Source of the DNA: Allodiplogaster sudhausi
Taxonomy: Eukaryota > Nematoda > Chromadorea > Rhabditida > Diplogasteridae
Length of the DNA stretch: 64,000 nucleotides
Assembly (NCBI GenBank): GCA_945643635.1
Contig: CALZFC010000249.1
Location: forward strand, 147,501-211,500
Direction of reading: 5' to 3'
In this document: positions 9,901 through 59,244 of the stretch, piece by piece
How the letters are laid out: every line of letters begins with the position of its first letter
How positions within the stretch are numbered: the first letter of the stretch is position 1
Program-made: the position numbers and the translations under genes
The notes under the pieces: generated by a model
What the model was told of the DNA's origin: nothing
What the model saw: the letters and a program-made list of their open reading frames with translations, nothing else
Databases searched by the model: none

Positions 9901-12534
9901 TACTGGTTTGTTATGAAAGTGTTTACATTTAGCGCAGGCTGTTATGGCCGTAAACGGGCATCAATAATCTACTTTAACCTTATGATCTCTAATGAGTAAA
10001 TATAATAGTCGCCGCAAATTTTCATTTTATCCACTTTTTGTCGCATAAAACTTCAGTTCTTGTTTGCTGCCCAAATTGACGAACACTAAATTTCTTCTCT
10101 TCTTTCTCTCAGGTCCGCCAGAAGAAGTGCGACTACGCGACGTCGCTCTCCAATCTCGAGCGCATCTCCGACTCGATCCACGAGCAGCGCAGCCTGGGCG
10201 GAGCGTCCGCTCGCTCCGCAGGGGGCGGAGCCAAGGCAGCCGTGGGAATCAAGGGGGCGGAGTCTGCACCCGATGGACCGCCGCCGTACAGGTTAGCAGA
10301 GTTCATGTTCTGCTTGTACCGTCTTCAACAAAAATGAATCACAAAAATGGTCTTCAATTGCTTTAAAAAATTGATGATATTTTTATTTAATTTATTAAAA
10401 AAACATTTATGAATGGGGATGAGGTATTAAATTTAATATTTACATTATTTCAGGCCTACAGCGCCTCCTGCCTACGACGACCATCGCTTCGACAGGCGAG
10501 ACGGCGCTCACTTTGTCATTTCACCGCCGGAAGACCAGGTATTCAGGCTATTCCTGTTTGGTCCCGCAGCGCTCATTCCTGATTACCGTATCTAGGAATA
10601 GCAAAATTTTATTTCAAGATTGACGCATGCAACGTTGGTCCAAAGGTTGAACTTCCTGACATCCATCTTTATTGCTTTATTTTAAACGAAAGGTAACTTG
10701 ACATTCCAGATCCCAGTCTTCTCGGTGCGTTTTACGAGGCTGTAGAGTGATGAAAGTGGAGAAAGAAAATAAAGAGAGGATAGATAGAGAGGAAAACAAG
10801 AAAAGCGTAAATAATTCAAAGATGTCGTCCCATCCTCCCCATCCCGATACTTTTTGATAAACTGATGAGCTATGCTTGATTGTAAATTGGCATTCTATCC
10901 TCCCAGAAAATATTCATTCGACACTCAATAGAGCTTTAGCCTGAAAATATTGAGACACTAGCAGGGATTGAACTCTCGCTTTATGCTCTAATAGGCTAGG
11001 GGCTAACCATTAAGCCATCAAGGGTACCTTTTTAGCAAGAAGTGGACGCGGTGCTTTCTCTCCTGGATGAAGAGGGCGCCGAAAAGGCGGGCCGTTCTCT
11101 CGGCTCCGGAGTCATTCTCCTCGCACAGCAACTCATGGGAGGTGGACGAAGGGGCGAGGACGACAGGCACAAGGAGAAGTTTGAGTCAGTACTGTTTTTT
11201 TATTAGTAGTTTTTTTTCTTGTATAAAATATCTTAAGAGATTGTCTTAAAGTTTATAATTCAAATCCTTTTTATCCATAATTTTAAATAGAAGTTGTGCA
11301 TTAAATTTTATAGTTAGAGTGATTAATAAAGCAAATAATAAATTAATTAAAATTATTTTCGAATTAATTTTCTCCCTTTCAGCTTGAGTGGCTCGCAGAC
11401 GGACGTCAGCTACCACACGACGCTGCCTGAGGGCAGCCTTCCGATTCACTCGTCCACTTCTTCGTCGCTGCACTCCATGGGAGAGTCGGGCGAGTCCAGC
11501 GAGGTCCGTGTTGAATTGAACACAAAAAAGAATAGTAGTTACAAATTGGTTAATTTTTAATAGAATTGGAGTGGACATATGTATGCACGCCAAGCCATGC
11601 CTTGGACAACAGCGATTTTTAAAAATATATATCTACTAGGTACGCTTTATTGAATACCGGCGGTTTTTGCTCACAGGATCAAGTGAAAGAAATGGGCATT
11701 GCGCGGTATGTTGGTTCTGTCGCAGCTGACACTGGGAAAAATTGTTTAAATAGTTTATCTTTTAATCAAATTTTTTAAATAATTAATTAATTGGGAGTCT
11801 ATAAATCTTCAAAAATATTGTTTGGACAAGCCGGGATATTGAAAAAAATGATGCAGAAACCAGTAAAGTATGTAGCTTCCTGTATTTTTGAAAGCAGGTG
11901 GATTTGTTGCTAAAAGCAAGCATAAAAGAATGTGTATTTGCTTTGGATTGTAGCAACATCTAATATACATATAATGTTGTGCTAATGTCTTTCCCGCTCA
12001 AGTTGTCCTGTCGGGAAATTAGCTTTTTTTCAAACCAATTTTTCAGGTGCAAGTTAATTTTATATTTCTAGGATATCTCTTTTTCTGGGTGCTCATATTC
12101 CGCTTTTTCCCTTCCCAGGTGTCCTCGCTAGCGTCGGGCCGCCTCGACTGCACCATGACCGATGAAGCTCTCTCGGGCATGCTCCGCAGCCATTCCACGC
12201 TCATTTCGGTTAGAATATCTCTCTTTTTGTGAGCGTGTATATCTTCTTCTTCTTCTACCAATGTTTCAATAAATAAGAAATAATTATTTATTTTGTGTAT
12301 TTCATTACATTTCAGTTATTTCAACTTCAAAAAAAAGGACGTTAGAAAATGTGTTTTGTTATTCTCGAACTGAAATACTGAGAAAATTTAAGGAGAAAAG
12401 AAAACTTAAATTTAAAGTTACCCTCGCAGGAGATTGACGGCTGTGCCGAGCGGGTGGAGTCGCTGCTAAAGCGAAGCTTCAGCGATGCCGACCCGGAGAG
12501 CGGCGTCGAGAGCACGACGGGGAGCAGCAACTAA
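2097..12534 (+). CDS. SH3BP5: SH3BP5/REI family protein (Rab11 GEF), 5' incomplete
   Basis: Exons: 2097-2304, 5328-5427, 8183-8326, 8675-8760, 9569-9716, 10113-10291, 10454-10538, 11036-11184, 11393-11503, 12119-12208, 12430-12534 (stop TAA). Phases agree at every junction. The first visible exon opens after an acceptor, so the start codon lies upstream. An acidic Glu-rich stretch precedes EELEKLNIATDVINKLE, the signature start of the SH3BP5 coiled coil. Exons 2-6 continue the long heptad-rich helix through KKSRAYFES and NLERISDSIHEQR, matching the vertebrate protein in order. Exons 7-11 encode a Pro/Ser-rich, low-structure tail, as in the family. Members (Sab in mammals, REI-1/REI-2 in C. 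elegans) act as guanine-nucleotide exchange factors for Rab11 on membranes; mammalian Sab also binds JNK at mitochondria. Family identity is firm; which role this copy has is inference. Two introns near 3 kb are packed with microsatellites. Confidence 0.9.
2572..7712. repeat. GA/TC arrays in introns 1 and 2 of the SH3BP5 gene
   Basis: Outside the 5328-5427 exon, the two long introns contain alternating purine and pyrimidine tracts. GA-rich tracts lie at about 2572-2650, 2990-3065, 3370-3495, 3583-3690, 3890-3990, 4470-4600, 4690-4760, 4945-5045 and 7560-7712. TC-rich tracts lie at about 4130-4275, 5700-5850, 6900-6953 and 7255-7345. A (TA)n run lies at 6350-6370. No exon-like GC-rich reading frame with splice sites was seen between them. 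Confidence 0.8.
8847..9272. mobile_element. small inverted-repeat (MITE-like) element in SH3BP5 intron 4
   Basis: The left end reads TTTAAAGGAGCAGTCCATGG and the right end is its near-complement (CTCCATGGATAGTTCCTTTA). This gives about 22-bp imperfect terminal inverted repeats around roughly 426 bp. A second inner inverted pair (AGGGAGTG ... CACTCCCT near 9002 and 9045) suggests a folded structure. There is no transposase frame. The structure fits a non-autonomous DNA transposon; the superfamily cannot be fixed because the duplicated target is ambiguous (TTTA/TTAA/TA). Confidence 0.55.
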
Positions 12535-24572: not shown

Positions 24573-25777
24573 GAAATATGATCAAAATAGTTGTTTATAA
24601 ATAATATTCTATCAATATTATCAACTCCATTAGTATTAAACAGTTCTATTTCCAAAATACTTTTGTACCTGTTTATCTGGAATGCTATTATTGAGCATGA
24701 CGTATTTTGGGAGTGAGAAATTTTTGTTTATTTTAGTACGGTCGTTTTCAGGCCCAGTTTCACACATTTGGTAAAAATTTCTTGCTCATGGTTATGTTAT
24801 CAAGAATTTTGAATCCGGCATTAAAATAAGGAAAACAGGCTCTTCAGATGATTCTTTTTCTGTCATTAAAAAATCAATTTTATGATATTGCTTGGACCCC
24901 AATGATGTGGCAAAGGATATTTTATTCCAAGAGGATTTATAAAGCTCATCCATGCTTTTTATGAAAGCGGAAGATAGAGAGAGAAATCAGAGAGCAGACG
25001 TAAGAAGGAGAATTGAGAGAGCAGATTGATGGCGAAATTTGTGCACATTTCGTACCAAATGCTAAAGTGCTGCGTGTTGGAGAGAACGAGAGAGAGAAAG
25101 AGCGAGTGAAATAAATTGATCTACAATCTCTCGCACTGAGAGGGTTCAAAAGCACCCGATTCGTTCTCGACGTACTCGGTTCACTTCTGGTGCATGCACC
25201 GAAGGCTGGGTATGATTCGGGTGCTGTAGTGCCCGTCAGTGAGAGATTTTATATCATTTCTTTCCGTCGCTCACTCTCTTCCCCTCCCTCTTTCAGGCAC
25301 GATCTTGGCACAAAATATGCACAAAGAATGAACAGAGAAAGTCCTTCACCAAGCCATCTCTCTCTATTCTCTCTCCAATTTCTTTCTCTCTCTCCTATCT
25401 CTCTCATTCTCTCTCCCTCTCTCTCTCTATCTCTCGCTCGCTCTGTAACTGCCTCTTTCTCTCCCCTACTGTCTTCCTGTCGTTCTCTATATGTATGAGC
25501 CGGCCGACTGCCGGCCGCAGGGCCCAAAAATGTTCATTACATTAATAAGAATGTGACAACGTCTGACGATATGTTCTCGACTAACTTAATTAAGATTAGC
25601 ATTGTTTACTGCATGAAGAATTCCTGAAGTGTCATTTTTAAAAGTTGTTTTTTTTCTTAAAAATAACATTAATTTGCCTATATCGCCTGCAATACAATTG
25701 CGGACATATTTTCCTTTAATCTATTTCTTGTTTAATATTCCGCGGTTTCTAACTTGCCACCTAATTTCTTTCACTCA

Positions 25778-25957
25778 GATAAGCCAGAAGAAGTGCGACT
25801 ACGCGACGTCGCTCTCCAATCTCGAGCGCATCTCCGACTCGATCCACGAGCAGCGCAGCCTGGGCGGAGCGTCCGCTCGCTCCGCAGGGGGCGGGGCCAA
25901 GGCAGCCGTGGGAATCAACGGGGCGGAGTCTGCATGCGATGGACCGCCGCTGTAGGG
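25778..25957 (+). pseudogene. well-preserved copy of SH3BP5 exon 6
   Basis: Nearly the whole of exon 6 (QKKCDYATSLSNLERISDSI through GGASARSAGGGAKAAVG) is repeated with only a handful of differences, behind an intact pyrimidine-rich acceptor (TTTCACTCAG). Near the end the parental TACAG donor context reads CTGTAGGGG, which creates a stop. The flanks share nothing obvious with the parent introns. The high similarity points to a recent copy or to gene conversion. Confidence 0.8.
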
Positions 25958-26899
25958 GTAAGTAGAGAGTAGTCATCTATTCTAGTTGTGCCGTCCTCAC
26001 CAATTCTCTCACACTACCTCTCTCACGTTTTCCTCTCTCTCTCTCTCTCTCTTTATTCCATCACAACACCTCCACCTTATTATCGTTTCTGTCACACATG
26101 CCGGCTTTTGATTAGCTTTCTTTACTGCATGAAGTTTACTGGATGTTTTCTGCTCGTTAAATCATATATTTATAGTTTTATATATTTCTTCTACAAAAAA
26201 TCATATTTAATTTTTTTAAGACTACATAGGTGTATGTATACAGCTCCTACACTAGTTGCCAACCTCACTCTTTACCTCATTCTTACTCTTTCTCTCTCTC
26301 TCACTCTTACTGTCTCACTATCTCTCTTACTCACTTTCTTCTCTGTTTCTGGGCCGCCGGCAGGGGGGCGGGACAATTGGGCTTGAAATCCCCGCCCCAG
26401 TTGACCGAGAGACTGATCGCCGTCTCTCTCCATCACCAACAAGGTCAAATCCATTGAACCATCGCATCATATTTATGATTGTTGCTCTATATGTTGCTGT
26501 TATTTGTTTTGTTTTGATTCTGAATTGATTGATTGATTATCTGCTTACCATAATTGCATTGCTCATAAACCTACTATGCCGATGAGTTGTACTGTGTGTT
26601 AGTTGAGCATAAGAAGAAGATCGCGGGCTCTCTCTCTCTCTCTCACTCTCTCACTCTTTCTCTTACACTTTCTGTTATAACTATATCCCCTTTCAGATGA
26701 CCACCGTATTTCTGATTCGTCCTATGCCGGGATTGGTTCTTGCTTGGTAAGCTCATCCATGCTTTTTCCGAAGACAAAAGAGTGAGATTGATCGAGAGAC
26801 GAAAGAAAGAGAGAGAGAGAGAGAGAGATAGGCGGAGAGAATGAGAAAGAGAACTTTATTGAGATATGTCTTAGGAATCATAGAGAGAGAGAGACGGGC

Positions 26900-30326: not shown

Positions 30327-33300
30327 TTAACACTTGAAAGGCAGCACCGCCTCCTTGTTCCTTAGGAACAAACGCCTGATCGTGTCGTCGTGGCGGCGAT
30401 GGATACAGGGGAGGAGGTTCTTGATGCACCGAATCGACTCTGTGGAGTAGTACTTCCGAACCTCTATTGAGCCACGGGCGCGGTGCTGATTCAGCACATC
30501 CATCACCATCTGCTTCTCGGCTTCCGTCATTTGGGGGTTGCGCAGCTTGGACGCCTGCACCTTACGCGGCATCTCTCTGCGCGTTTGCAGAGAGAGACGA
30601 GGAACGTCAGCATCAGAGGCCTCATTCGGCACCTGTGCAACAGGCTTATCGCTGGGAGAGGCCCCTCCAGACACCTCGACGCCCACAGCTGATACCTGGC
30701 CGGACGACAGCCAGGTGTTGCGGGAGACATTGGCCGATACCCGTGGAATAAAAGGCACCACTGCCTCCTTGTTCTTATAGAGGAAAGCCTTCATCGCGTT
30801 GTTGCAGATTACGATTCCGGGAATGAGCTTCTTGATGAATTGAACAGATTCTGTGGAGGCGTACTTCCGTACTTCAACAGAGCCACGCGCACGGTGTTCG
30901 TTCAGCACTTCCAGTAGCATCTGCTTTACAGCTGGTGTAATCTTGGGGGCGCGCGCGCGCACGTCCTTGGGCGCCCTCTTTCTGCGCGGGTGCAGAGAGA
31001 GACGAGGAGCCTCAAGAGTAGCGTCATTTTGACCCTCAACGGGAGCCCCAACTGGAGCCCCAACGAGACGCTCAACGGGAGCCTCAGCATCAGAGGCCGC
31101 ATTCAGCACTTGTGCGACGAAGGGAGAAGCCCCTAAAGTCACCTCCGTGTCCTCAGAAGACGCCAATCCTGACGGCATGCAGGCAACGTGGTTGTTGCGG
31201 GAGATATTGGCCTGGGTCATGACGAGTTGCGTGAAATCGGTACACGTGGAGTATTTATCCACTCCGTTATTGTGATCCTCTGGCAGGGGGGCCGGTCGAC
31301 TGGCCGGCGCGTCGGCACTCGGCTTGAAAGCGACCACTTTTTCGATGTTCCTGGCGAAGAAACAACTGATGGTTTGGTCGCACCGTGTGATGCAGGGAAC
31401 GAGCTTCTTTATGAAGGAAGTGCACTTCTTCGAGGTAAAATGTAGTGCCTCCATGGAGCCACGGGAGCGGTGCTCATTCAACACCTCCAGCAGTATCTGC
31501 TTCTCGGCTCCCTTAATTCTTGCGCCGCGCTCTTTGCGCGGTTGCAGAGGAAATTCTAGCGCCTCAGCATCATTAGCCTCATTTAGCACCTGCGCGATAG
31601 GGGTAACGAGGGGAGAGACCCCTCCAGACACCTCAGTACCCTCAGCAGACACCTGGTCGGACGACAGCCAGGCAGTGTGGCTGTTGCGGGAGACATTGGC
31701 CTGGCTCAAGACGAGTATCTTGTATTCGATGCCCGTGGAAGCCTCATCCACTTCGTTCACGCGGTAAATTGCCGTCATCTGCGCGTGCTGGGACAGATCC
31801 TCAACACGATTTCCTTTATTGCTGCTGGAGCCACAACCCAAAACTTGATTCCGATCATCCCATAAGAACTATAATACAAAAACTGTATAAAGATTAAAAA
31901 ATATGTATATAATAAAATAAATAGATAAATAAATCGCAACCTTGGCTGCGAGATCGACTGTGAACTTTCCGAGAGCGGCAGCCGCGTACCAAAGATGCTG
32001 CATTCCGAGAGATCGAACGAGCGACGCTTTGCCAGGAGAGGCAGGCGGCGCAGCATTTTCGAATTCAGCCACGGAACGATGGGCTTCAGCCAGCCATGTG
32101 GCTAACTTCAATTGAATACGTTAATGATTGCAGTATATTTAAGAAATGGTTGCAGATGATAAAGGAGGAACTTCAATTACACGATAATTATTGTAGAAAT
32201 GTGAAAGCTTAACTTCGTTTAACCATAATAAAAAAAAAGCAGATCAGAAGTAATACAAGCAAAATAGACTGGCAAAACATTTTAAGATTTCTACTGATAG
32301 AAAAAGATCCTTAAAAAGCTTACAAATTTTGGCATTTTTAATGTGAAGAAGTTGATAAAAGGTTTTGTATCACGATAAGATGCACTCCTAAATAACTAAA
32401 TGGAAAATCTTACCTGATTCTGATCCACTGGCATCGCGCTGAATTTCTCGAGGAGAGCGAGTGCGGGACTGAGGAGTCGCATTTCTCGGTCGGATGTACC
32501 GTTTGCAAGGAGCAAGGTATTTGTCTTAAGATTACAAAAGGTCTTTTTTTCTTTAACTGAAAATGAGCGATTTACGTTCGATAGCTGAATTGTATCAATT
32601 GTAAAATCGAATGAGCTTAAGCACAAGAGACGCGGAACAAAAGAGAAACGAAGAGTAAGAATTCAAAAAGTGAAAAATGTTCAGTGATGAAGGATTGGAC
32701 GAACAACGCTGGCGTGTTCGGCGATACGAGCCAGCGAGTTGCGAAGTTGTTGCTCCTAAAGTACAGGGCACGTGATCGAGTTCGCAGCAAATGAAAATCT
32801 ACAAGTGAATAAATAAATGTATTGAAAACTAATAGCATATATATATATGTATGTATACATGCAATAAACGCTACCTTGGCCAAGAGATCGACGGAGAACC
32901 TTCCGAAAGCGGTAGCCGCGTACCAAAGATGCTGCATTCCGAGAGAGCGAACGAGAGATGAGGAGCCAGAGGCAGGTGGCGCAGCATTTTCGAAGACAGC
33001 CACGAAGAGGCGGGCTTCCGAAAGCCATGCGCCCAACTTTTAAGGAATACTATTAATCAAGGCGTGTTGATAAATGATGGCAGGTGAGTAGCGTTTTCTT
33101 ACACAAAGAGCAAGCGTTAAAGCCTGATTGCACACACACACGCACACTACTGGTTGTAATATATTGAGGTTCAAACCTGATTCTGATCCTCTGGTATAGC
33201 GCTGATCTTCTTTAGGAGAGCGAGTGCGGGCCTGAGGATATCCATCCCTTGCTCGGGTGCGCCGTCGGTAAGAAGGCAATTTGCCTTGAGATATGTAAAT

Positions 33301-39030: not shown

Positions 39031-39428
39031 TATAATCAACATATTTCTTGCACTACATTAACTTCTTAACTCTGAGTCATCAGAAAAGAAAGGTTCAATA
39101 ATTATCTACGTTTTTTTTAAATCTCAATCAATTCAGGAAAAAAAAATCTGCCACTAACTCCGGGATCTCCGATCTTTTGCGAACTGCACCATTTCAAGAT
39201 GCATACATACTTTTTTATTATAAATAGACCTAAAAGCTCATTGTGATAAGGTTGTGAAATATTCGTAATAAGCAATAAAATAAATTGGCAACAAAATTTC
39301 CCGACAAAAGACACAACTTGCAAAACGTTTCGCGAAAGAATAGGTAAAAGCGTATCCAGACATATTTGATAAAAAGATAATCGATCTTGAAATAACTATA
39401 TATATTTTTTCCTTTTCGTTCTGTCATT

Positions 39429-40791
39429 TTATGCAGTCTCGCGACCATTTCCGTGCTGCATCCGCTTCCTGAAGAGAGCACGAATGTGTGAAGGTGAATT
39501 CTAAATTGAACATATGAATAATTTTGAAAGGAGAATCTTCACACACCAGTTTTCCTTGGAGATGGCGTAGGCCGGTTCGCCTTGCGTGAACCCGTTGAAG
39601 GCTGTCGCGAGCACGGAGGAGTACGCGCCCATGTTTGGATAGAAGAGCCAGTCGCCCTCGGCGAGGCGTGGCTTGCGAGCGCATTTCTGGAGACAGCAAA
39701 AAAATTTCACAAATATTTTAGCTGTTATTGTCTCTTTACCTTCAACATATTTTTTTACTGATTTGGATATGTATGTAGCCAAACGAATTTTTTCTTCTTT
39801 TTTTTGCCTCTCCCATTGCTATTTTTTTTCAGAGTGATCATCCCGGTTGATCAATTAATGAATGAACAGAGAGAAACAATAGAAGTGCATACTATTGATT
39901 TCTTTACACCCCCATGATGATTTTAGAGAGTACTTCGGCGAGCTTTTGACTTGTATAAAAAAAAATGAATGTGTTTTGTTGCATGAAAAGTTCTCTTTTT
40001 CGAGCAGTTTTTTTTAAATATGCAGAAATAATAATTAAATAATAATCTCCATAAATGCATACTTCGACAAGATCCGTGGAGTCGGCAGTCGGGCCCCAAA
40101 CTCTGCAGGGAAAAAGCTCCTTTTCACCGTCGCAGTCCTCGCTAAACCGGCAGATTTCACGTGAGCAAAAAGTTGATAGACGGACATTAACTTTATATAA
40201 TTAAATCATGATTCTGTAAATTATAATATATATTTGTATGTGATAGCAGTAATATAATCCTTTTTTTGCTCAAACTTTTGATGTCATGCCCATTTTCAAA
40301 AGTATCATATTTCAAAGTTTTTTGAATCTTGTACGTTTAATTAAAGTTCTACTAAATAAAATGTCGTTGGCAAAAATGTGCAACATTTATATACCGTAAC
40401 GGAACGCCGCAGACGCTCTGCTTTCCCCAGATAAGCCGACTGAACGAGCAGAAGGCGCCGTCGTTGATGAAATAATTGAAGCCACGAGATGAAATGACGT
40501 CATCTTCAATTGGGGGAGGAGGGGACTTTGGTCCTTCTTTGTCTGGCGCCTTTGTCACTTAGGTTGCAATCTTTCGCGCGCTTTCGCACGAATCGGTGAC
40601 CAAGATCTCCTAAAGAAACGGGGTTGATATGATATATTGACATCTGTTTATTTATTGATACCACAGGCGTTTAGAAAAACATTTAAAATAATAAAAATAT
40701 AAAAAAAAAACAGAAGAAAAACCGTTTCCGAGTGTCCGTTCACAGTTTGAATGCAGACAATGTTGCCATTGTCGTTCTGCTGAGGAGGCAT
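39429..40791 (-). pseudogene. ODC-like copy with the PLP-barrel exons deleted
   Basis: Minus-strand pieces: 40791-40723 (MPPQQNDNGN...), 40609-40560 (EILVTDSCESARKIAT then TAA), 40558-40395 (SSRGFNYFINDGAFCSF), 40141-40063 (EDCDGEKELFPCRVWGPTAD), 39686-39547 (KPRLAEGDWLFYPNMGAY), 39468-39429 (KRMQHGNG..., stop). Compared with the plus-strand copy, everything from the third to the ninth exon, including the PLP lysine region, is gone. The second exon runs straight into the tenth with a stop at the seam. The 3' splice sites and reading frames are intact, so the tail may still be expressed, but not as a decarboxylase. Confidence 0.7.
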
Positions 40792-41500: not shown

Positions 41501-41639
41501 TTTTGTTGCGAATCCGAATCAAACAAAATTTTTGTTTTCGAAATAGTAATTCATAAAAACTGTCAGATGTAAAAGGCGAAACTAGGAAAATGGTTATAAA
41601 GAAAATATTGAATGTAAAATAGGATATCGTTTAAGGGAC

Positions 41640-41930
41640 AGGCACAGCGAAGAGGGTGAACTCTCCCAAATCTCCAACGCAGAGAACGGCGATCTCCCTC
41701 TCTCTTCCGTGGGAGAAAAAGCGCTTTACCAAGTGAGAAGCGAGAATAAACTTGACACAAAAGTGAATGTATGACCATAAAAAACGGCTAGCGAAGTGAA
41801 TTTGGCCTAGAGAGTTGGTAGGATAAGCAAGAGAAGGCCTAACACCAGGAGGGTGATGAGAATGAGAAAGACACACTTCTACTTCCTCCTGACCTCTTTT
41901 AAACTGTCAGATGGAGAGGAGTTATAATTA
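41640..41930 (-). repeat. ODC 5' module, copy 2 (inverted)
   Basis: Near-complement of 42850-43165: GAACTCTCCCAAATCTCCAA, GGAGAAAAAGCGCTTTACCA, AAAAGTGAATGTATGACCAT and CACACTTCTACTTCCTCCTG all recur there inverted. The two copies face each other across about 0.9 kb. Confidence 0.8.
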
Positions 41931-42194
41931 GTCTAACATCCTGGTAAGGCTATTGCTTCTTTCTGTATGATGGCCTCCTAAGGCTATTTCTCCGCGCCTT
42001 GAAAGAATCCAGACGAGCTTGATAATTCTAGAGAGATGAAATGGTGGATAACACATATTCTAGAAGCATTTTCTAACATTACGAAGATCAAACCATCAAT
42101 CGACATAAACTAGCGGAATATGCATTCTAGATTCCGCAACAAGAGCATTTCTCTGCGGCTCCTGCCTTCATCGAGAATTGAAAAAAAATCTATT

Positions 42195-42330: not shown

Positions 42331-42849
42331 TACACGCACAATTGGTAAAAAACATTAATTTAATTTGTTCAGGAAACAGAAAGTAACAAACATTCGCAAC
42401 TAATAATATTTCTCGCCTCTTATGCTCTGCTATAGATGAGCATTTGAAATGCGTACAAAGTCCGCTGTTCTTTTCTTGAATTGTGATGGAATTTACATTC
42501 ATTAGTTCTTCATAAATAAACAACATTTTTCTCAGTCGTATTTTCATAAATTCCTATTTCCATTACGCACTTTGGCTTGATTAGTAAAAAGATGTTGGCA
42601 AAGCGTACAAATGGACGCATTCATCGGGAGAGAATCCTTGAATCCATGATTCATATTCTGCTACTCTATGTCGATCGATATTCTTTGTTCTCTTGATGTT
42701 AGAAAATTCTTCTAGAATGTGTTTTCTCCGTTCGCAATGCACTTCTTCTCCTTCGGATTATGAAGCGCGGCTTGATTCATTTCCAGCGTTAGGAGGCCAG
42801 CATACAGATATACCAAAGAAGCACTAGCCTTACCAGGATGTTAGGGTCA

Positions 42850-43165
42850 TCCTAACTCCTCCCCTTCTGACCGCTTAAAAGGGTCAGGAGGAAGTAGACG
42901 TGTGTCTTTTTCGTTCTCATCACCCTCGGCATTCTCCACCGCTTCTCCTGCTTATCCTTCCAAATCTCTCGGCCAAGTTGCTCTGATACCCGTTTTTTAT
43001 GGCCATACATTCACTTTTGTGTTAAGTTTATTCTCGCTTCTCACTTGATAAAGCGCTTTTTCTCCCATGGAAGAGAGAAGAGACGATCGCCGTTCTCTTG
43101 GAGATTTGGGAGAGGTCACCCTATTCGTTGAGCTTGTCCAAGAAACGATATCCTTTGTCTCGTTC
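42850..43165 (+). repeat. ODC 5' module, copy 3
   Basis: GTCAGGAGGAAGTAGACGTG ... TTTATGGCCATACATTCACT ... GATAAAGCGCTTTTTCTCCC ... GAGATTTGGGAGAGGTCACC. Precedes the isolated ODC-like first exon at 43494 by about 330 bp. Confidence 0.8.
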
Positions 43166-45430: not shown

Positions 45431-49454
<4,024 letters not shown>

Positions 49455-49864
49455 TTCGCAACTGCCAAAAAAGAACACTATGAAAAAAAACTATAATATC
49501 AAGAGTAATACATATGTACGTTTGCTGAGGGCGGTTCTTTTGATAAACGATTTAATATGGGAGTTATTACATTTACGAAGCATATCCTCGAACAAATAAG
49601 CTGCGCAATGAGTTGTCGCCAGTCTTGGGAGACTTGATGCATGACGGAGGAAATTGGCACCAAGTATGTATGTACATATGTATGTATCTTGTTAAAGACG
49701 TCCCACCATCTGGTAGCCGGCTTACCTCGCTTCCGCTTATGTAGGCCGACGCCATAGCAATGGTAATAGACAATCTGCGCTTTTTGATCCAGTAGATTCT
49801 TGCTTAGCCCAATGACAGCGAAAATTTGGTACTTATTGCTCTCAATAGCATTTTCAACCCTTTA

Positions 49865-51471: not shown

Positions 51472-52177
51472 TTAATAATTTCTACTTATTACTGTACTTT
51501 TGTTCTTGGAGTGTCTCACGAAAGACGTTGAAATGTTGACGCTACTCTCTTGTAAGCATCTAATCTTGTGGGATGTCAGGCGCCGAAAAAGGTAGACAAG
51601 AAACTTTCGATAGCTACAGTCCCGCTCAACATTGTTGGGTCCGGTATTAATAGTATTAATAGTATTAATTTAAATAATACAAACTGGAATAGCGCGCTGA
51701 ATACGCATTTTCGTGTCATTTCGCATAGGAGTTTACCTATTTCGACCATGGAGATTACGACTATGAAGACCGTTTTCAAAAATATGCTGAAATGGCTGAG
51801 AACTCATAATATTGCATTTAATTTGGCCGCGTTTGGGTTCCAAACGGGCTGGCTCGAACTCCTGGACTACAATGTGCAAAATAATGTGAAATTTTCAGAG
51901 CACTTCTTACCTTTTTTGAGTTTCTTGTTTTATTTCGCTTGAGTTTCTCATTTTGTTTATGTATAAACGACGAAAAAAAAGCAAAAAAAAATTTCGTGCT
52001 TGCAAAAATCTATTCTCAAAAATGTATCGAACCGAGACATCGAGATTGCCGGTCAAAGACTTACCAATACTCTACAAACGGTACAAACAGATCTGATGAT
52101 ACCTTTCTTTGGACAGCGTCGATTGCTCACAACGGAAACGTTGATTCTGAACACTCTCTGTTTCCTACTTTAGTGGG

Positions 52178-52215
<38 letters not shown>

Positions 52216-52453
52216 AAGAAGGTGCAGCGTCGACTACATCTACTCTGCGTCACCGTTTCAAGGCTGAAGCTACGGTATGTCGTTAGACCAACGATTTTTA
52301 TCATTGTCAGCTAACAGCACCTGCACCTTCTTTCACCTCTCTCTCACACGCCCTCTCTCTATCTCTTCTCTCTCTCCCGCTCTCTATTTCTCGCTCCACC
52401 GGTCTCTCTTTCTCTTTCTCCCTCTCTCCTTCTTTCTCGTTCTCTCGTATTCC

Positions 52454-52498
<45 letters not shown>

Positions 52499-54647
52499 CC
52501 ACTAAAGTATGAGCTAACGTATTCAGAATCGACGTTTCCTTTGTGAGTCAATCGACGCTGTCCAAAGAAAGGTATCATCAGATTACGTTATACAGTCTGT
52601 AGAGTATTGGTAAGTCTTTGACCGGCAATCGCGAGGACTCGGTTCGATACCCTTTTGAGAACAGATTTTTGCAAGCACAAAATTTTTTTTTTGCTTTTTT
52701 TTCCTCGTTTATACATAAACAAAATGAGAAACTCAAGAGAAATAAAACAAGAAACTCAAAAAAGGTAAGAAGTGCTCTGAAAATTTCACATTATTTTGCA
52801 CATTGTAGTCCAGGAGTTCGAGCCAGCCCGTTTGGAACCTAAACGCGGCCAAATTAAATGCAATATTATGAGTTCTCAGCCATTTCAGCATATTTTTGAA
52901 AACGGTCTTCATAGTCGTAATCTCCATGGTCGAAATAGGAAAACTCCTACGCGAAATGACACGAAAATGCGTATTCAGCGCGCTATTCCAGTTTGTATTA
53001 TTTATATTAATACTATTAATACTATTAATACCGGACCCAACAATGTTGAGCGGGACTGTAGTTGATGTCAGCATAATTGTCAGCGATTGTGCCAGCGAAT
53101 GGAACGAGTATACGACCATCTAGGCTGCCGCAAGCTCTATGTTGAGTATGTTGTTATTGCACTGTACAACAATGATTATTTATATTTAAAAAAAAACTTG
53201 ATTTACTCACCGTCATTCTGAATCTTTAATGTCAGCATGGCCATCAGAATGATAACTGGAAAGGTGACAAAGAATAGCGGCACGCACAGCTAAGTGCAAC
53301 AAACATTTTTTGCTGAATTTGCAATGATGTTTCACGTAGTAATTGTAAAATTCATCTATATTTCTTGAATATCCGAAAATTTATCGGTGTTCGAATATGA
53401 AGCACTTCACAGACTGTAGTAAGAAGACTGTAGAAGAGTCGCTTTTGAAGCGCGAGTCGTCCTCCCGACATTTTGACTGATGATGAAGCAGAAGTAATGA
53501 TGTGGCGCATGTGAAGGCAAATTGAAATAATAGCGACTACCAACAAGCAGGCCCAACCGACAACGACACCTGTAGGTAAATATATGGATACAGACATTCT
53601 TGATTTGGTGATATGAAAGCAATAGGTAAGTCACTTCGCACAAGAGCAAGCTCACCCATTAACAAGTGACTTTGTGCGTGATCCAAACAGAGAAACTGTT
53701 CGACTTCAAAGGCGTAGTGGTTTTCAAATGCCTGCGAGCGACATATCAAATATGGGGTACGAGGATAAATGAAGTTTCCTCAACCATTACTGACATATTC
53801 AGAAGAATGTTCAGAGATTCGGTGAAAGGCGAGTGAGCCAAGAGCTAGAATTAAGCCATGTAACACAGCGGTAGTGCCATATACGCAGATTAGCGCCCCG
53901 CGTGATAGCCGCCATCGTGAACCGGATAATTGGAGATGCTATAACTCAGCATTTTAATAGCATGACGACGCACCCTGATTCTTTTGTTGTGATCTCAGAA
54001 AATTCTCATAAAGTCGTCTACAAATTTACATTCATAATGTACTCATTACGTTCTTAATTTCGAACTTAATTTCAACTCTCAACAATTTATCGTATTCTTC
54101 AACCATCATTTGGAGAACGTTGTAAATCTGCAAGCAAAAGAAACCATGAAACTTACTTGGTGTCGATAGATGAAGCAGTATATCAGCATTGTAAGGCAAG
54201 TTGCAGCGAGAAATAATGAGAATAACTGAAACAATTCCATTTTTGAGGATGTTTTGAAGATATTTCCTTTATGCTGTTGTGAAGCCAACCAACAAATCTT
54301 CCTAATGTGAGTTGCCATATTGCTGGAAACTTGAAGGGGCTATCGACGTAAATGCAATACAATGGAGGGAAGAATGTGTGGCGGCTGATGAGATCGAATG
54401 TGATGTCGTTAACGATTTGTATGAGCTGTAGATCAAAAAAGAGTGTGAGAAAAGAGGGCCTAAGTGATGCAAACAAGAATTCACAGACCACAACGGCTGC
54501 GAGAAGAAATCGATAAGTGCCTATCTTTCGGTCGCTGTGCCTTAGAATGGCGACAGCAGCGAGGATGTTGAGAGCGACGCAGACGATGCAGATTGCGGTG
54601 TGCAGCACTCGCAATGAGTGCAGCAGAGAACGCGGGAAAACATGCAT
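51472..54647 (-). pseudogene. nematode 7TM chemoreceptor locus 2, interrupted by a foldback element
   Basis: Minus strand from ATG at 54645-54647: TM1 (AICIVCVALNILAAVAIL), then RKIGTYRFLLAAVVVCEF (TM2), a long loop, QLTLGRFVGWLHNS, TM3 (LFLAATCLTMLIYCFIYRHQ, shifted by one frame, near 54250-54160), TM4 near 53945-53850, a loop with EVEQFLCLDHA near 53700, TM5 near 53550-53410, TM6 at 53295-53215 (LFFVTFPVIILMAMLTLKIQ), TM7 from about 53125. The TM7 exon is cut after QSLTIMLTST by the element at 51617-53058 and resumes at 51616 with YRKFLVYLFRRLTSHKIR to a stop at 51472. Str/Sri/Srh-like; the frameshift before TM3 and the insertion make it a pseudogene unless the insertion is recent or heterozygous. 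Confidence 0.7.
51617..53058. mobile_element. 1442-bp foldback transposon-like element with TA target duplication
   Basis: Both ends read CAGTCCCGCTCAACATTGTT inward, and TA flanks each side (51615-51616 and 53059-53060). The arms are near-perfect reverse complements for about 560 bp, including CCATGGAGATTACGACTATG and GAACTCCTGGACTACAATGT. They continue into a (GA)n tract at 52183-52211 and a matching (TC)n tract at 52459-52496. No transposase frame. CAGT-type ends with a TA duplication are typical of Tc1/mariner-derived non-autonomous elements. It interrupts a 7TM exon whose two halves are recognisable on either side. Confidence 0.85.
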
Positions 54648-59140: not shown

Positions 59141-59244
59141 TGGTTAGTGCTCGATGTAAATAAATATTAGCGTAGCTCACGCTAATATGTAAATAAATAT
59201 TAGCGTGAGCTACGCTAATATTTATTTACATCGAGCACTAACCA
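59141..59244. other. perfect 47-bp hairpin
   Basis: Positions 59141-59187 (TGGTTAGTGCTCGATGTAAA ... CACGCTAATA) are the exact reverse complement of 59198-59244, with a 10-base loop TGTAAATAAA. Not one mismatch was found. The left arm continues a diverged block that exists once at 50.6 and 55.1 kb without the inverted half, so the right arm is a recent inverted duplication here. Confidence 0.9.

Follow-up and report, generated by a model that had tools for sequence, protein, structure and literature searches.

A non-autonomous foldback transposon, probably of Tc1 type, in the last exon of a nematode chemoreceptor gene

Positions 51617-53058 of the window, the whole 64-kb stretch of Allodiplogaster sudhausi DNA that was analysed, hold a foldback DNA element of 1442 bp, which was identified by repeat alignment of the window letters. 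With a probability of about 0.85, it is a non-autonomous foldback transposon that was inserted into an Srh-type receptor gene, at a TA of its last exon, a Tc1-type transposase being supplied in trans. The element belongs to a high-copy family with several hundred recognisable ends in the genome, it is flanked by TA on both sides, and paralogous receptor exons carry the target site without it. This looks like an ordinary and well-resolved insertion of a foldback family, most likely of Tc1 type.

Structure of the element and the interrupted receptor exon

The termini of the element read TA-CAGTCCCGC...GCGGGACTG-TA (ends CAGTCCCGCTCAACATTGTTGGGTCCGGTATTAATAG, the end sequence also being written as CAGTCCCGCTCAAC). 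The two adjoining TA copies lie at 51615-51616 and 53059-53060, as read from the letters and from a paralogue with a single TA, and the outermost 53 bases of both ends are identical. The coordinates, the ends and the TA on both sides had been given exactly in the initial annotation. The long, near-identical inverted arms described there, put at about 560 bp, are also present but slightly longer, at 595 bp each. By arm alignment, the left arm spans 51617-52211 (plus strand) and ends in (GA)n, and the right arm spans 52464-53058 (minus strand). The arms account for 595 + 595 of the 1442 bp and thus for most of the element, which places it in the foldback structural class. Aligned to each other, they differ at 25 of 590 ungapped columns, with 10 further gap columns as short indels, and the alignment score is 508.5, while none of 50 single-base shuffles exceeded 14.5. 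The mismatches are distributed unevenly, with 7/384 in the outer 385 columns versus 17/166 in columns 386-560 (Fisher p = 3e-5). Close to the left arm end, a TATTAATAG repeat is located at 51645-51673 (plus strand), with TTAA at 51647, 51656, 51665 and 51670. The centre (52212-52463, from repeat search and fold) consists of an inner inverted pair followed by a TC-rich, mostly unpaired stretch; the inner pair, 52182-52227 and 52321-52366 around 93 bases, overlaps the end of the left arm. All Rfam matches in the centre were below the gathering scores and fell on a low-complexity stretch. A reading frame is open over at least 100 codons in 40 of 50 arms; its variable sites are spread evenly over the three codon phases (18, 18, 19), by which a protein encoded in the arms was ruled out, and the arms are without coding constraint.

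No second copy of the element was found in the 64-kb window. Other repeats are present there. Inverted duplicated pieces at 39401-40513 and 48619-49495, 82-97% identical and symmetric around ~44.5k, enclose an ornithine-decarboxylase-like gene, for which the best named matches among the best nine rows are from strongylid nematodes and Pristionchus at 46-48% identity. A second long inverted repeat is located at 41621-42134 and 42640-43154 (538 columns at 78%, with ~506 bp between the arms), and a 104-bp palindrome at 59141-59244 (96%) is possibly a small palindromic element. A direct repeat at 10100-10331 and 25766-26003 (89%) contains an exon, presumably of an SH3BP5-like gene, which suggests a partial gene duplication. 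On the minus strand, an open frame of 513 codons that contains a threefold internal repeat (30327-31868) had no Pfam match above the cut-off.

The host gene, an Srh-type chemoreceptor gene on the minus strand, carries the element in its TM7 exon, which is also its last. The upstream part of this exon (53059-53136, its start at 53136 being predicted from a splice acceptor) ends in QSLTIMLTST, and the downstream part (51475-51616, from the reading frame and the paralogues) begins with SYRKFLVYLFRRLT. After removal of the element with one TA, QSLTIMLTST is followed by SYRKFLVYLF in a single open frame, so the initial description of a TM7 exon split into halves reading QSLTIMLTST and YRKFLVYLF holds. 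The insertion at this TA would have broken the receptor frame between TM7 and the C-terminal tail. Upstream of it, the exon contains an in-frame TAG at 53120-53122 (minus strand), reading ELAAA-stop-MVVYSFHSLAQSLTIMLTST, while TCC (serine) occupies this position in all five paralogues examined (36.9k, 57.0k, L080, L081 and L082). Among these five, the stop is private to the interrupted copy, although sequencing error could account for a single stop. With its own in-frame stop and the insertion, the receptor copy is broken twice, and its disruption is ordinary decay of one copy of a large receptor family. Nematode chemoreceptor genes are present in the window near 37k, 54k and 58k. The joined exon chain of the paralogue at 37k reached 50.7 bits with Pfam 7TM_GPCR_Srh (cut-off 26.3), and the chain at 57-58k reached 31.3 with Sri (cut-off 23) and 29.6 with Srh. 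These chain scores are those of paralogues; for the interrupted copy, two single frames were tested, one of which matched Str below the cut-off.

Element-free targets were found at paralogous places in the same genome, which are not alleles of the interrupted copy. In the window, the paralogous exons at ~36.9k and ~57.0k are without the element. Genome searches were made with the left flank (40 of 89 candidates scored) and the right flank (40 of 86). The insertion point is reached at 24 other receptor places. In 10 of them, the other exon half follows at a distance of -2 to 15 bp; in one, only a more distant piece of it is present, 185 bp away; and two more were read directly and are empty (C95, 94% in the left half, and C10, 88%). 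A gap near 1.4 kb was seen in none of the 24. The paralogue L082 (C4:2827846), found with the right half, reads GAGAGC-TA-GTTGATGTCA, which is the target with one TA. The empty-site check called for in the initial annotation was thereby answered on paralogues.

Copies of the family and their target sites

In a genome search with 2155 first-look candidates, 24 other full-length copies (covering 1-1442) were identified among 40 scored candidates; L022, which matches only 1-1252, was excluded. TA is found on both sides of all 25 full-length copies, the window copy included, and their 300-bp flanks are mutually dissimilar except near another element end (L009, L011 and L023). The 30-base end motif, with up to two mismatches, occurs at 307 + 290 = 597 places in the 351.8 Mb of the assembly (382 contigs), while the reversed control gave 0. 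The first 100 of these places, all exact, resolved into 35 pairs and 30 unpaired ends; 26 of the 35 pairs are 1410-1481 bp long, and the remaining ones measure 483, 805, 980, 988, 1266, 1277, 1337, 1551 and 8202 bp. The 8.2-kb pair (L061) owes its length to an insertion of ~6.9 kb in one arm of an otherwise ordinary copy. The genome would contain about 300 copies, provided that two ends are retained in most of them. The expectation that further copies with the same ends exist is borne out, and a foldback family is documented here as high-copy with clean empty sites. At L009, 47 bp from a full copy, an 82-bp TA-flanked palindrome consisting of the foldback ends alone was noted (C16:106921-107002).

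Five copies (L039, L046, L072, L073 and L074) were inspected for different interiors behind the same end, an idea that was rejected for L072 and L073. What lies behind the end of L072 is an inverted-repeat element nested in the terminal TATTAATAG repeat, flanked by TTAA at either side and having GAGAGCCTGTCTGAGATA as inverted ends; L073 differs from an ordinary copy by a base change. L039 holds a relative of the L072 insert (266 bp at 78%). Another inverted-repeat insert, with a 649-bp arm at 96%, starts at TTAA in L046, where the element was not resumed at the far junction within the 2 kb read. Flanking TTAA is demonstrated at either side for L072 alone; by their target, we take the nested inserts to resemble piggyBac-type elements.

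A description of the family was not found in open-licence literature, searched by titles and abstract starts, among the matches listed, and none of the listed matches to literature containing the end letters of the element was about a transposon. The family may already be named elsewhere.

Arm divergence, age and mirrored changes

The high identity of the arms had been taken as a sign of a recent insertion. This did not hold when the 25 copies, oriented by their centre, were compared arm by arm: the divergence is 5.1% within copies, and between copies 4.3% (left-left), 5.4% (right-right) and 5.9% (left-right). Since arms are about as divergent within a copy as between copies, their identity gives no insertion date, and it should not serve as an insertion clock in a high-copy foldback family. 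In only 4 of 25 copies are the two arms sister tips; left arms mostly cluster with left arms and right arms with right arms, inside subfamilies. An apparent swapping of arms among copies vanished once the copies were oriented by centre. Of 1434 bases, 34 distinguish the window copy from the copy nearest to it; four other pairs of copies differ by only 0.4-0.6%. At 30 sites, the two nearest copies agree against the window copy, and 16 of these look derived in the window copy and 13 in the other two. By these comparisons, the window copy appears to be moderately young, not among the youngest.

Within the window copy, the first 535 positions of the arms contain 23 mismatches, of which 14 are new, 8 inherited and 1 other, and 6 sites that are asymmetric in both nearest copies are symmetric here. 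Mirrored sites, at which the two arms agree in a base that deviates from the overall majority, number 10 in the group of the window copy, with 0.18 expected for independent arms. Elsewhere, they number 11 in L024, 9 in G5, 7 in L025, 4 in G2 and 3 each in L014 and L017, and they are few in L010 (2), G3 (1), L026 (1) and G4 (0). The total of 57 compares to a mean of 24.6 and a maximum of 48 for random pairing of the left and right arms of groups (total reached in 0 of 2000 permutations, the kinship of the groups being ignored). This pattern suggests arm-to-arm copying in some lineages, including the subfamily of the window copy, and not in others. Mirrored pairs of mutations in the founders of subfamilies might stem from gene conversion or from repair in which the palindrome is formed anew; re-formation of the palindrome from one arm would leave the same mirrored pattern. 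A further-reaching proposal, that the hairpin shape is maintained because one arm is copied onto the other again and again and that the hairpins are a standing source of double-stranded RNA against the family, is tentative and considered rather doubtful. With mirrored substitutions, a test for arm-to-arm copying in a DNA transposon is possible on the sequence alone.

The putative mobilising transposase and known foldback systems

The terminal ~30 bp of the element (CAGTCCCGCTCAACATTGTTGGGTCC) are the putative recognition site of a Tc1-type transposase, which, supplied in trans, would cut the element out and paste it into TA, duplicating the TA. The assignment to Tc1 is based on TA, on CAGT and on similar outer bases. 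TA as target-site duplication is present in 25 of 25 full-length copies, together with a single TA in the empty paralogue, and the terminal inverted repeats start with CAGT. A DDE/D transposase is not encoded in the element; with arms free of coding constraint, it can therefore belong to Tc1/mariner only as a non-autonomous derivative. For DDE_3 (Tc1-type) transposases, 55 matches were found in the genome (best 1.1e-11), and 69 with one of them as query. Fourteen DDE_3-type loci, a minority of these matches, were examined. Three of them (L062, L071 and L078) end in long terminal repeats flanked by TA, each of which starts with CAGTNNCGC; their outer ends read TA-CAGTGGCGCTCA in L062 and L078 and TA-CAGTACCGCC in L071, compared to TA-CAGTCCCGCTCA in the foldback element. 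L066, L067 and L068 carry an inverted repeat of 29 bp whose letters differ (CGAAAGTTTC), and no clear terminal repeat was seen in the other 8 of the 14. The end CAGTCCCGCTCA itself was found in 0 of these 14 loci; a 9-base match to the element end inside the gene of L071 is due to chance. The Tc1/mariner relative with the same ends, for which a search had been suggested, has a counterpart in three elements with similar ends, but in none with identical ends in the loci examined.

The main rival to a Tc1-type transposase is one of the pogo/Tc4 type (DDE_1), by which the element would be moved as C. elegans Tc4 is. TA and CAGT ends are likewise features of pogo-type elements, so that these ends are not exclusive to the Tc1 type, and the genome contains 7 DDE_1 matches, all above the Pfam cut-off, with 6 lying in open reading frames 344-526 codons long. 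However, these matches are weaker (best 3.9e-4) than those to DDE_3, the one DDE_1 locus examined (L083, 2.2 kb) has neither a terminal inverted repeat nor a matching end, and the flanks of the element, CTA and TAG, share TA, as in all 25 copies, without a TNA duplication. A mover of this type is considered unlikely. Misassembly can create long palindromes, but a false palindrome would hardly account for 24 further full-length copies with shared left-arm and right-arm lineages, for TA on both sides or for the empty paralogues, and an artefact is next to inconceivable. An equally negligible chance is given to a Mutator/foldback element resembling Tm1, a root-knot nematode family of foldback elements with long composite inverted repeats; according to PMC3169594, 45 of 53 complete Tm1 elements have duplications of 8-10 bp, mostly 9, in contrast to the TA of the 25 copies.

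The initial annotation also proposed that double-stranded RNA from the arms could feed silencing of the receptor family, which would turn the insertion into a working regulator. The element strand is predicted to fold as one long hairpin with a small inner stem (-1018 kcal/mol, a value without shuffle control), and a hairpin RNA is plausible; for C. elegans, PMC3878927 describes that read-through transcripts of inverted-repeat transposons such as Tc1 can fold back and feed RNAi. However, in the window, which contains several receptor paralogues, the arms show no similarity to receptor sequence and the element has no match other than itself. The element family would for this reason be the target of small RNAs from the arms, and silencing of receptors would need a spread of small RNAs into the exon. 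Since the receptor copy, moreover, carries a private stop of its own and the element is a generic family member present at many unrelated places, a role as regulator is highly improbable, and silencing of the receptor family as originally stated is not supported. If the element is transcribed, a long hairpin RNA would be formed, and its small RNAs would be directed against the transposon family itself.

Compared to known systems, the foldback element shares features with three groups. Tc4, about 1.6 kb in size, consists mostly of inverted arm and is likewise a nematode DNA element; its target is TNA, in contrast to the TA on both sides and the CAGT ends found here. Tc4 is named a fold-back element of C. 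elegans in the title of a 1991 paper cited in PMC6829131. With Tc1-like elements, the foldback element shares the TA target duplication, the CAGT ends and three co-resident elements with TA-CAGTNNCGC, while it differs in being without a transposase gene and in the arms that fill most of it. Tm1 is, according to PMC3169594, a nematode foldback family with non-autonomous members; it differs in its composite repeats and in duplications of mostly 9 bp, in place of which the 2-bp TA is found in the foldback element described here.
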